NCBI RefSeq assembly: GCF_008087665.1
Contig: NZ_CP042912.1
Location: 3,286,001 to 3,350,000 of the forward strand
Direction of reading: 5' to 3'
DNA length: 64,000 nt
Source: Mariniblastus fucicola
GTDB lineage: Bacteria; Planctomycetota; Planctomycetia; Pirellulales; Pirellulaceae
A model generated the notes under the pieces. It saw only the letters and a program-made list of their open reading frames with translations, had not been told where the DNA came from and made no database searches. Made by a program: the position numbers and the translations under genes. Shown here one piece after another: positions 32,388 to 39,556 of this stretch; positions within the stretch are counted from its first letter, which is position 1, and each line of letters opens with the position of its first letter.

Positions 32388-33488
32388 TCAGTCAGAGACG
32401 ACCGAAGCCGGTTCGGCAGCGTTTTCGATTTCGTCGGCGGCATCAATCAGCTTCGCAACCACATCGGCATCGCACATTCCATCTGTCGAGAGGTTGAGCG
32501 TACTCGCGCGAGGAAGTTCTGACATGCCTTTAAGGTAGGACCGATCGTAATAGGTCAGCGAAATCTCCGCCGCCGTCCTGAGGTCTCCGGCTTCGATGGC
32601 TTTTATCGCATCGATCATATTCTGCCCGCCGAGACGTTTTTGAATTCCGCGAGTCGCGTCGATTAGTTCTTCGTGATCCAGATCGCCGTATTCTTCCAAC
32701 AGGATATCCAAACGCTTTTCTTTGGCGACGTCCAGAAAAACCGCGGATGAGCGTCGGATCTGTTTCACAAAACGAGACGGCACAACGACTCGGCCCAATC
32801 GACTGCCTTCATCTTCGACCCAAAAACGACGCTTCGGATCAAGTGCCTGAACTGCAGCAAACAGGCGATTTTCAAACTGCTCCGTCGTTGGCTGTTGCCC
32901 CAAACCGATGGCTCCGAACGAAGATCCGCGGTGATTGGCGAGCCCCTCCAGATCGACAATTTGCTCGCCCGCCTCACGCAACAGCTCCAGAAAATTTGTC
33001 TTGCCCGCACCCGTCAGACCGCTGAGCACGACCATGCGGTGACGACGCCCAATTTGGCGTTGAGCCATTCTGCGGAAAGCCTTGTAGCCACCTTCCAGCA
33101 CACGAACCTTGATCCCTGCCATATCCAACAGCCACGCAAACGACTGGCTTCTCATTCCGCCGCGCCAGCAGTGAACGTAGGCCGTGAAATCGGAGCCCGG
33201 TTCGCTCGAATCGGTGACCTCGGATGACCCTTCGGCCAGAATTTGATTTGTCGTTCGAACGAAACCTGCCATTTTCGGACCGACGAACTCGAGCCCTTTT
33301 TCCATCGCAACGTTGCGACCGGAATTGACATAGAGCGTCCCAATGATGGCTCGTTCTTCGTCGCTGAATAGCGGAACATTCGTCGCGCCGGGAACGTGTC
33401 CAGCCGCGAACTCTTTGGGAGAACGCACGTCGATGATCGTTCCGCCTTGAGATTCTCGATAGAATTCTTCTGCGGAAATTCTGTTCAT
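32388..33488 (-). CDS. mnmH: tRNA 2-selenouridine synthase MnmH (SelU)
   Basis: 366 residues. MnmH replaces sulfur by selenium at the wobble uridine (position 34) of some tRNAs, using selenophosphate. The N-terminal rhodanese domain has IIDVRSPKEFAAGHVPGA (about 18-35) and the active-site loop HCWRGGMRSQSF, with Cys about 107. A P-loop follows, LSGLTGAGKTNFL (about 156-168), then the conserved DLEGLANHRGSSFGAIG. This domain pair is specific for the family, and length is normal. Its presence implies that the cell makes selenophosphate (SelD), which supports the selenocysteine reading of the gene at 38252-39556. The gene stands alone on the - strand, 65 bases downstream of the zinc-finger gene on the same strand but separated from it by a terminator. 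Confidence 0.95.
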   Translation of the reverse strand: MNRISAEEFYRESQGGTIIDVRSPKEFAAGHVPGATNVPLFSDEERAIIGTLYVNSGRNVAMEKGLEFVGPKMAGFVRTTNQILAEGSSEVTDSSEPGSDFTAYVHCWRGGMRSQSFAWLLDMAGIKVRVLEGGYKAFRRMAQRQIGRRHRMVVLSGLTGAGKTNFLELLREAGEQIVDLEGLANHRGSSFGAIGLGQQPTTEQFENRLFAAVQALDPKRRFWVEDEGSRLGRVVVPSRFVKQIRRSSAVFLDVAKEKRLDILLEEYGDLDHEELIDATRGIQKRLGGQNMIDAIKAIEAGDLRTAAEISLTYYDRSYLKGMSELPRASTLNLSTDGMCDADVVAKLIDAADEIENAAEPASVVSD

Positions 33489-37120: not shown

Positions 37121-37801
37121 TCAGGCTGCTAACGATCTTCGCCTTTGCAGCAACAACGCCGCACCAACTCCAAACAGTAGTGTTGCGGACGCAGGTTCCG
37201 GGACTGCGGATGTTACGAAGATGTTGACCCCGCCATAGCTTGCCACTGAGTCGATCAGTTGACCATCAGCGAACGTCGATAGCAGCAAGGGGTTTTCGTG
37301 GTCCGAGAGGTTGTAAGTCGTGACGTTTCCGACGTCGCCCGCGTCAACGAGCAGCGTTGCCAGCTCCAGTTCGTACACGTCGGGCGTCCCAACATCCGAG
37401 CCTACTTCGACGCCACCAAAGATGTTTGTTGTGGACCCGAAAAGATCCAGTCGGTCTCCAAGGATTCCGAGATCATTTAATAAAGAATCATTGAACAGAG
37501 GATTCAATGAAACCCCGGACACCGATTCGATTGTTGAAGCGGCCCCTCCGGTCGAAGTCGCGAAATCTGCACAGATTCCAAAGTTGACGAGCCCGTCGAA
37601 TCCGCCGGTGGCCAGGCGAGCGACGTCGCCATCGGTCACTGTCTCCCGCAGCATGATAGAAACTTCGACGCTCGAACCTTCGACGACGTAGTACTCCGGC
37701 TGCTCGAATACCAACTCGTAAACTTGATCCGCTTTTGATTCAGCTACGCCTGCAAAATTTGCGAACGTAGCCAAAAAGAATAACTTGACTGACCGATTCA
37801 T
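37121..37801 (-). CDS. PEP-CTERM sorted exported protein
   Basis: 226 residues from ATG 37801 (MNRSVKLFFLATFANFAGVA), with a signal peptide of about 24 residues. The C-terminus VPEPASATLLFGVGAALLLQ followed by RRR is a PEP-CTERM sorting signal, read by an exosortase system. The mature domain is a beta-rich, low-Cys domain (ELVFEQPEYYVVEGSSVEVS) like cohesin-type or surface adhesins; its role is unknown. It is convergent with the groEL operon. Confidence 0.85.
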   Translation of the reverse strand: MNRSVKLFFLATFANFAGVAESKADQVYELVFEQPEYYVVEGSSVEVSIMLRETVTDGDVARLATGGFDGLVNFGICADFATSTGGAASTIESVSGVSLNPLFNDSLLNDLGILGDRLDLFGSTTNIFGGVEVGSDVGTPDVYELELATLLVDAGDVGNVTTYNLSDHENPLLLSTFADGQLIDSVASYGGVNIFVTSAVPEPASATLLFGVGAALLLQRRRSLAA

Positions 37802-38251
37802 TTGTTCTGACTCCGATGTGTGATTGGTTAAGACGCATCTAAACCATAGGTCGCGCGGAGCTTCGTTTGACCGACGCGAACGAAAGAGCCGGCTCAAAAT
37901 TTGACATCGCTTTCAGGCTTACATTCCGCCCGATCGGAAAAATCTCCTCGTGAATTTGTAGGCTAGTGGAAATGCGATCTCCGTTATTTCTTTCAGCGCG
38001 CCCGTCAATGATGCCAAACGCAAAATCCCGTGGGTTTACCCTTGAAACCCATTGCAAGCTTGTAATTGGTACGATTTGACGCAGCAAATTTTCAAAAGCC
38101 GCTTGGTCAATTCGCGGGGTGATATGCGATAGATTTGGCGCCTCAAGTTCTCATGCGATTGCAAATCGAGTTTCGGTCCGCAGCTGAAATTTGACTTTGC
38201 CGCACGTTTGTAAGGCAACAGGACTCCGGCTACGATGCGATTCATTGATCG
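37802..38251. other. 450-base gap upstream of the Trx/PDZ gene
   Basis: No supported ORF, hairpin or repeat. It must hold the promoters for the divergent PEP-CTERM gene and for the Trx/PDZ gene. Two - strand open frames (37839-38087 and 38036-38245) have no protein-like features. Confidence 0.4.
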
Positions 38252-39556
38252 ATGATTCTTAAGAAGTCTGCCATGCTCAAACCACGCACCACAGCGATTG
38301 CGATTGCCTTATTGTTCGCGGCTACCGCGCTGAGTTTCGCTCAGGAAATTCCCAAGCCGGCCATGCACCGAATGGACGGGACGATCGAGTGGGTTTATGA
38401 CTACGAGAAAGGGCAGGAGCTTAGCCAGGAATCCGGCAAGCCGATGTTTGTTGTCTTTCGGTGCGAACGCTGAGCGGATTGCTCAGATTTCGACGGGCAG
38501 GTTGTCCGTAAAGACAAACATATCGGTACGCTGGCCAAAAATTTCGTATGCGTACGCATCCAGTCGATGAACGGAATCAATCTCGATCGCTTCCAGTTTG
38601 AGTTCGACCTGACCTGGATGGCTTTCTTTCAAAACGCGGAGGGCAGAACTTACGCGCGCTACGGTGGGCGCGATGACGGAGGCGCAGAATCGTGGCTGAC
38701 GAAACAGTCGCTAATCAAGACCATGCAAAAAGTTCTGCTGTTGCATCAAGGCAACGACGTTCAACCGATTTCAAAGTTCGAACCGTTTCCGGATAGTGTG
38801 TCTACACCTGCCGATGTGCCGACGCTCAAGCCGATGATGGCGAAACGAAAAGGCTCTTCGTGCATTCATTGTCACGACGTCAAGAACTCTGCGCTGCGGC
38901 ATCTACACGACACTGGAAAGCTCAAAAAATCGATGGTGTTCACTTACCCGTCGCCGTCTCTGTTTGGTTTGAATCTTGATCCAGACACGCAAAACGTTGT
39001 CGCGAGTGTGGAAGAAAATTCGCCAGCACAGAAAGCTGGAATCCGCCGCGGCGATGTTGTGAACACGTCTGAAGGCCAAAGAATTCTGACGTTCGCCGAT
39101 TTCACGCGAGTGCTTGAGTTTGCGCCAGCTGAAGGAAGTTTGAATCTGACCATTTCGCGTGGTGAGAAATTGCAAGACGTGAAGATCGAGCTTCCCGAGG
39201 GCTGGAAAATCAGCAACGATCCTTCCTGGCGTCCTTCGGTTGGCGTCGTTGGATCTGGAGGCGGATTTTGGGGCAAGGCTGCGAATGCGCAGCAGCGAAA
39301 GAAAGCTGGATTGGGTCCAGACGCGTTGGCCATTCGCGTCACGTTCATTTGGGCGAAACACGCGAAAGAAGCCGGCATCAAAATGAACGATTTGGTCGTT
39401 GGCGTCGAAGGGCAAGTCCACGACATGAACATGCGGCAGTTCCACAACTGGTTGCAACTGAACCGCAATTGGGGCGATGAGGTGACTCTGACGGTAATGC
39501 GAAAAGGCCAGCGAAAGAATCTGAAAATGGTGCTACCAACAACGCCCGAAGAGTGA
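38252..39556 (+). CDS. Trx/PDZ protein, probable selenoprotein (TGA = Sec)
   Basis: An exported protein of 434 residues if the TGA at 38471-38473 is selenocysteine; annotation software would give 38252-38473 and 38567-39556 as two genes. ATG 38273 would give a tidier signal peptide (MLKPRTTAIAIALLFAATAL). The thioredoxin-like region has MFVVFRCER-U-ADCSDFDGQVV, with U in a C-x-x-U-x-x-C motif (residue 74 from ATG 38252). The frame is uninterrupted after the TGA. Residues near 205 contain CIHCH, a c-type haem motif. Two PDZ-like domains follow (NVVASVEENSPAQKAGIRRG; IKMNDLVVGVEGQVHD). Role inferred: a periplasmic thiol/selenol redox protein. I recall an NCBI family name 'Trx7/PDZ domain-containing (seleno)protein' that would fit, unverified. 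The alternative is a nonsense mutation, but the rest of the frame is intact. Confidence 0.78.
38471..38512 (+). promoter_or_regulatory. Putative bacterial SECIS element
   Basis: Downstream of the TGA, ACGGGC (38493-38498) pairs with GTCCGT (38504-38509) in six pairs, one G-U, around the loop AGGTT (38499-38503). The loop begins 26 nt after the TGA codon (16-37 nt is the known range) and has the GGU typical of SelB-bound loops such as E. coli fdhF. An additional UUU/AAA stem with a two-base bulge lies below. Confidence 0.65.

Follow-up and report, generated by a model that had tools for sequence, protein, structure and literature searches.

The window, a stretch of 64,000 nucleotides from the closed, single-contig genome (6.57 Mb) of Mariniblastus fucicola, holds at 38252-39556 what reads as a single gene with an in-frame UGA at 38471-38473. 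The ATG-initiated frame from 38252 meets this TGA and is then open until the TGA at 39554-39556, and an ordinary ORF list divides the gene into ORFs of 73 and 329 codons. The original prediction had joined the two ORFs over the same bounds; a single gene is indeed what we find, but its start is likelier to be the ATG at 38273 than the one at 38252, judging from the N-termini of homologues in our alignments. The features referred to below are the following:

38273-39556, + strand: selenoprotein gene trx7_PDZ_seleno (NF041199), with 38273 as the probable and 38252 as a possible start; stop TGA at 39554-39556.
38390-38572, + strand: Thioredoxin_7 region (Pfam PF13899, 44.1 bits) with the redox centre C71-x-x-U74-x-x-C77, numbered from 38252; register from the alignment to 3fk8.
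38471-38473, + strand: in-frame UGA, putative selenocysteine, residue 74 counted from 38252 and 67 from 38273; the family genes read have either UGA or Cys here.
38493-38509, + strand: SECIS hairpin, stem 38493-38498/38504-38509 and loop AGGUU 38499-38503; evidence from covariation, the Cys control, a covariance model and energy.
38861-38875, + strand: CIHCH motif (CxxCH), candidate heme c or metal site.
38975-39193, + strand: first PDZ domain (Pfam PF13180, 66.6 bits, two stretches).
39353-39535, + strand: second PDZ-like region, with the second Pfam PDZ stretch, TIGR00225 over residues 368-428 below its cut-off, and strands plus a helix in the structure model.
32388-33488, - strand: mnmH, tRNA 2-selenouridine synthase (NCBIfam, 351.6 bits, cut-off 241), a separate selenophosphate user outside the Trx7/PDZ gene.

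Much of what had been read from the letters alone thus stands: the TGA is in frame and the reading continues beyond it; the context FRCER-U-ADCSDF and the thioredoxin, CxxCH and PDZ features are all present according to translation, Pfam and NCBIfam; and mnmH lies in the window as claimed. The read-through product matches the NCBIfam model NF041199, 'Trx7/PDZ domain-containing (seleno)protein', with 441.8 bits (E 2e-132) over profile positions 1-389 of 390, above the cut-off of 300, and the family is therefore already known. The Pfam matches of the protein comprise PDZ and Trx domains and include no protease domain, and the matches of NCBIfam protease models, which fall in the PDZ part, all stay below cut-off. 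Directly upstream and divergent from the gene lies a PEP-CTERM protein (37121-37897, - strand; 22.0 bits, cut-off 20.7). We sought a conserved neighbourhood, and the largest group of shared flanking ORFs comprised five loci on mixed sides and strands; within flanks of up to 2 kb, the neighbours of the window gene (GroEL, the PEP-CTERM protein and a transporter) had a match in none of 84 loci. A search of plasmid records gave no match.

The state of the UGA codon was followed in three sets of relatives. A set of 99 genomes provided 40 long matches (>130 bits), leaving out two partial pieces of G044 and shorter, mostly PDZ-only matches; a scan of species genomes found 378 loci and kept 80, of which 14 were site-identical to loci already in the set, so that 66 new genes brought the tree set to 106. 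Finally, a census with NF041199 across 294 Planctomycetota genomes found matches above the cut-off in 88. Of its 133 listed matches, the 110 above the cut-off were read (109 in the census and one, G045, earlier as L020), together with one match below it (L248), and the remaining 22 below the cut-off were left out. The codon corresponding to 38471 is Cys or UGA in 40 of 40 long homologues, in 80 of 80 scan loci and in 110 of 110 census places, with 54 UGA and 52 Cys genes in the tree set and 85 UGA and 25 Cys in the census, there read from the profile alignment. After removal of five census rows identical to tree rows over 60 nt, the pooled total of 211 genes, which merges three samples of different kinds and is unevenly sampled, contains 136 genes with UGA, from several phyla, and 75 with Cys. 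The centres are CxxC in 75, CxxU in 64 and UxxU in 72, with no other form; one census repeat (L175/L176, CxxC) is kept in these counts, the distinct genes being 210 and the distinct CxxC genes 74. On the tree, just four independent pairs stand on well-supported branches, and all four agree (p 0.125). The idea that the gene is a pseudogene of a Cys-form protein, broken by a nonsense mutation or an assembly error, would suit a frame split by a single TGA and the existence of Cys homologues, but the conserved UGA, shared by 136 of the 211 genes and by 12 of the 13 in the window's own clade, and a frame that is otherwise intact and shows up to 56% identity with a homologue, leave it a negligible chance, and we reject it.

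The host genome also has the complete equipment for selenocysteine. SelB is matched with 355.7 bits over positions 2-579 of 581 of its model, above a cut-off that only two of 14 control genomes passed in the same profile search; selA (555.4 bits) and selD (265.1 bits) are present, and the tRNA-Sec (selC) scores 70.1 bits, has the anticodon TCA according to ARAGORN and fits the Rfam model at full length. The original prediction had proposed both the search for these four genes and the reading of homologues at the UGA codon as checks on itself; neither spoke against it. The selD frame (G000:C1:4276027-4276941, L054/L057) is open over 767 residues, more than twice the 311 positions of the SelD model, and possibly encodes a SelD fused to an NADH dehydrogenase, an arrangement that PMC2398784 describes. 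The tRNA-Sec model, run at E 0.001, finds matches in 99 of 99 genomes and in 14 of 14 controls, owing to other long tRNAs, and the line drawn at 62 bits therefore matters. With a true tRNA-Sec taken as one of at least 62 bits, a threshold set after the gap in the scores was seen, it is present in 16 of the 17 UGA-form genomes and in 7 of the 17 that have the Cys form alone (Fisher p 0.0024). The UGA-form genome in which no strong tRNA-Sec was found, G032, is a 91% complete draft in 400 contigs.

Taken by itself, the hairpin behind the UGA carries little weight. Six pairs join 38493-38498 to 38504-38509 around the loop AGGUU, which narrows to GGU if A38499 pairs with U38503; from the TGA it is 19 nt to the start of the stem and 25 nt (AGGUU) or 26 nt (GGU) to that of the loop. 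The original prediction had the hairpin and its loop right, but the 26 nt that it gave as the distance fits the loop and not the stem. In the bacterial SECIS model drawn in the Figure 2 legend of a 2026 review (PMC13188914), the apical loop has 3-9 nt with a G in the first two positions, the upper stem 4-16 bp, the UGA lies 16-37 nt from the apical loop, and the minimum free energy is -7.5 kcal/mol or lower. The window hairpin agrees with this legend in its loop (AGGUU or GGU), stem (6-7 bp), spacing (25 or 26 nt) and energy (-8.7 kcal/mol for 38492-38510 and -7.6 for 38493-38509), the agreement being of low specificity, given that an equal or longer SECIS-like stem follows 194 of the 2413 TGA triplets (8%) on both strands of the window. 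Likewise, 13 of 200 shuffled sequences fold equally well (z -1.89), and the minimum-energy fold of the 39 nt at 38474-38512 is a different, longer-range and more stable competitor. The weight that had been given to the hairpin in the single sequence was thus overstated; as stand-alone evidence it is no better than chance in the shuffles and the TGA-triplet control, and we discarded it in that role. The Rfam model RF00031 (SECIS_1) matched neither this genome nor any of the 14 control genomes, and it was dropped as a test since none of those controls matched.

The picture is altogether different when the hairpin is compared among relatives. In 20 UGA genes, 97.1% of the cells of its seven pairs are paired, two of the pairs show compensatory changes of both bases (10 cells in all), and the covariation is 0.320, a value reached in none of 500 shuffles and compared with at most 0.162 in slid versions; at the same place in 20 Cys homologues, 34.3% is paired, no better than in shuffles. 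Among 66 genes outside the definition of the hairpin, some of them close kin of the genes that define it, six or seven of the seven pairs are found in 34 of 34 UGA genes and at most five in 32 of 32 Cys genes. In the whole tree set the same division holds for 54 of 54 and 52 of 52 genes, respectively. A covariance model built from the first 20 and run on 80 loci gives at least 39 bits at 45 of 45 UGA loci and 31.8 bits at the best Cys locus. In the fixed register of the census, 46 of the 85 UGA genes have seven pairs, 12 have six, 10 have five and 17 have two to four, the 25 Cys genes having at most four; in several of the low-pair UGA genes, the hairpin is shifted and has a 4-nt loop, AGUU. 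Counted free of register, stems are longer in UGA than in Cys rows (p 1e-23; 139 vs. 77 rows, repeats included), with a stem of at least seven in eight Cys rows. Judged from these comparisons, the hairpin tracks the UGA and not the gene family, and the comparative signal is far beyond chance: RNA signal and UGA come and go together across the family. In the home genome, the covariance model gives the window site 57 bits and the next site 19 bits (E 0.145), but the former is discounted because the window site is one of the 20 training rows of the model.

In a distant planctomycete group (L152, L155, L159, L161, L154, L157 and L163), the loop is the 4-nt AGUU and the stem is shorter, varying in a compensatory manner among GACC/GGUC, GGCC/GGCC and AGCC/GGCU. 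The Cys gene L070, of the window's clade, has a broken hairpin with four of seven pairs, and in the Cys gene L110 only the 5' half of the SECIS-like sequence remains; both look as would be expected if Sec was lost. Together with L135 these genes outscore other Cys genes in the SECIS covariance model (L070, 20.4; L110, 24.0; L135, 31.8 bits), and the three may have switched from Sec to Cys recently, with traces of the signal left. The home genome has a second selenoprotein candidate, a VPGUxxT-type Trx-like gene (L262, G000:C1:5507307-5507753 and downstream) with the context FQEVPGUQTCVDF; a 149-residue piece of it scores 203.4 bits against NF041383, whose cut-off of 275 applies to the whole protein. 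Its frame runs on to another in-frame TGA, in the context SMYUFWEGEAQLG, which we take to resemble a motif of the methionine sulfoxide reductase A type. The covariance model did not list this candidate and is therefore no general SECIS finder.

With codon, machinery and hairpin in hand, other readings of the UGA can be weighed. The inserted residue itself is not visible from sequence, and the UGA might be read as another residue or passed by non-specific read-through; this is very improbable, however, as the genes read that lack UGA at the codon have Cys there, the Sec machinery is complete, a SECIS-type hairpin accompanies the UGA, and the Trx7/PDZ gene itself terminates at a UGA. Somewhat less remote, though still improbable, is that the codon serves mainly as a selenium-dependent switch, by which low selenium would yield the 73-residue product and the full protein would be minor. 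Any UGA-Sec codon competes with termination, which speaks for a switch; against it, the 73-residue piece lacks a complete domain, its match to the Pfam Thioredoxin_7 model reaching only 15 bits at a cut-off of 27. Decoding of the UGA as Sec is very likely, close to certain, in light of the comparisons above. The joining of the two ORFs into one probable selenoprotein is supported by the Sec genes, by the exchange of UGA and Cys and by the UGA-linked hairpin, and with considerable confidence we infer a single gene that makes an exported redox protein through UGA read as Sec, with Sec insertion, export and biochemistry as the inferred parts of this reading.

What the protein does is a matter for more tentative reasoning. 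The disulphide isomerase 3fk8 aligns with VFRCERUADCSDFD against VFGANWCTDCRALD, ungapped across the active site; the match is weak (E 0.0069), and in its register, of the two Cys of CTDC, the first falls opposite the window Sec and the second opposite C77. In anterior gradient proteins, an active-site Cys likewise falls opposite the window Sec (weak, E 0.019 or worse). From this register, Sec looks as if it occupied the nucleophile position of thioredoxin, in a UxxC centre with an extra Cys upstream, although the label in the literature is CxxU. The upstream residue, C or U in all 211 genes, is more constant than the third Cys, kept in 199 and lost in 12, so that the working redox pair may be either 71-74 or 74-77. 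In our structure model (pLDDT 92.5, pTM 0.88), the central strand is followed by a helix and the Sec sits directly in front of that helix, as the active site does in thioredoxins. The model also has an N-terminal helix over residues 5-20, which would fit an export signal. DegP/DegQ PDZ domains bind peptide tails, and among the matches listed in a search of solved structures, the good ones are to the PDZ part (DegP/DegQ and others), the Trx part having weak matches only, 3fk8 being the best.

Under the reading of the UGA as Sec, SelB would bind the hairpin just 3' of the UGA and deliver Sec-tRNA-Sec, and the ribosome would insert selenocysteine at 38471 to give an exported protein of about 427 residues, consisting of a signal peptide, the Trx7 domain, the CxxCH segment and two PDZ domains. 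The Sec may act as the nucleophile of the UxxC centre, with an additional Cys, in many relatives a Sec, three residues before it, in disulfide reduction or isomerisation, or in peroxide reduction, on exported proteins held by the PDZ domains. Our guess is thus an exported oxidoreductase acting on PDZ-held clients, and its main rival is a heme or metal role of the CxxCH: the protein could mainly be a redox carrier through this motif, with the Sec a ligand or an electron relay and not a thiol-exchange nucleophile. The motif is well kept, all 106 genes of the tree set having CxxCH and 105 of them CxHCH, the exception being CVECH in L044. Plain heme-c CxxCH sites do not usually have a His in this middle position, and the conserved form may point to metal binding. 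Despite the CIHCH, no cytochrome c family is among the Pfam and NCBIfam matches of the window protein, and the Trx register, weak match as it is, puts the Sec at the position of disulfide exchange; we consider a mainly heme- or metal-based role unlikely, but the most serious of the alternatives.

While the window gene is of the single-Sec form, many of its relatives are not. Of the 211 genes, 72 have another UGA three codons further upstream (UxxU) and one downstream hairpin; they come from bins named Planctomycetota, Poribacteria, Abditibacteriales and, in one case, Actinomycetota. Among the 110 above-cut-off census matches, UxxU is the commonest form (54, next to 30 CxxU and 26 CxxC), and UxxC was found in none of the 211 genes, so that the upstream Sec never occurs there without the downstream one. 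On the 106-gene tree, the UxxU state changes 10 times, at least seven of them on well-supported branches, gains and losses being counted together. The loop starts about 25 nt after the second UGA and therefore about 34 nt after the first, and both distances are inside the published range of 16-37 nt (Fig. 2 legend of PMC13188914). We think it probable that Planctomycetota and neighbouring phyla have a large class of Trx7/PDZ proteins with a repeatedly gained or lost double-Sec centre, UxxUxxC, whose two UGAs, 9 nt apart, are served by a single hairpin within the gene. If true, this would let one study in a natural setting how a single SECIS decodes a pair of UGAs and which role a diselenide has in the thioredoxin fold. 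The double-Sec form of the relatives is the bold part of our account; the window gene is a further member of a known family, but one in a closed genome with full Sec machinery and so open to test. The wider family offers a natural comparison of CxxC, CxxU and UxxU on one scaffold. The window gene appears in an ordinary ORF list as a fragment and an internal start, and proteins of this kind are easily lost from annotation.

That the Trx7/PDZ family is already catalogued is a point absent from the original prediction. The window protein belongs to NF041199 trx7_PDZ_seleno, matching it at full length over the curated cut-off, and its Sec lies where the table of the 2026 review has it, in an entry of the form CxxU with one Sec (PMC13188914). 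The window gene does not differ from that entry, whereas the UxxU form, in 72 of 211 genes, is unlisted there; a full-text search within the literature collection used here found NF041199 named in no paper other than this review. A 2022 review has in its table a 'PDZ domain-containing protein, pfam13899, CxxU' (PMC9312934). The two-Sec form is missing from both review tables, which give CxxU only in the passages compared (PMC9312934, PMC13188914); the family may also figure among the selenoproteins of S9 Table of PMC4807772. Earlier still, Table 4 of the 2008 study of the GOS data lists a 'Putative secreted serine protease MucD' selenoprotein with CxxU, two Sec sequences and 12 Cys homologues (PMC2398784). 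As far as the two table entries go, they would describe one family, and the MucD selenoprotein is probably of the same family as the window gene, sharing CxxU in the GOS entry and Thioredoxin_7 plus PDZ in the 2022 table. The window gene differs from the GOS MucD entry in being full-length in a closed genome and without a Pfam protease domain.

The VPGUxxT thioredoxin-like families NF041382 and NF041383 share a related Trx7-type N-terminus, but the window protein, with 38.0 and 25.2 bits, scores far under their cut-offs of 350 and 275; they match residues 16-113 and 43-104, its PDZ domains and CxxCH lying outside. SelL forms a diselenide. The UxxU spacing of the double-Sec relatives is also that of the Prx-like UxxU selenoproteins in the published tables (PMC2398784, PMC9312934, PMC13188914), but SelL and the Prx-like UxxU proteins are peroxiredoxin-like and not Trx7/PDZ, and the window gene has one Sec. 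Planctomycete genomes with Sec machinery have been described (PMC4807772).
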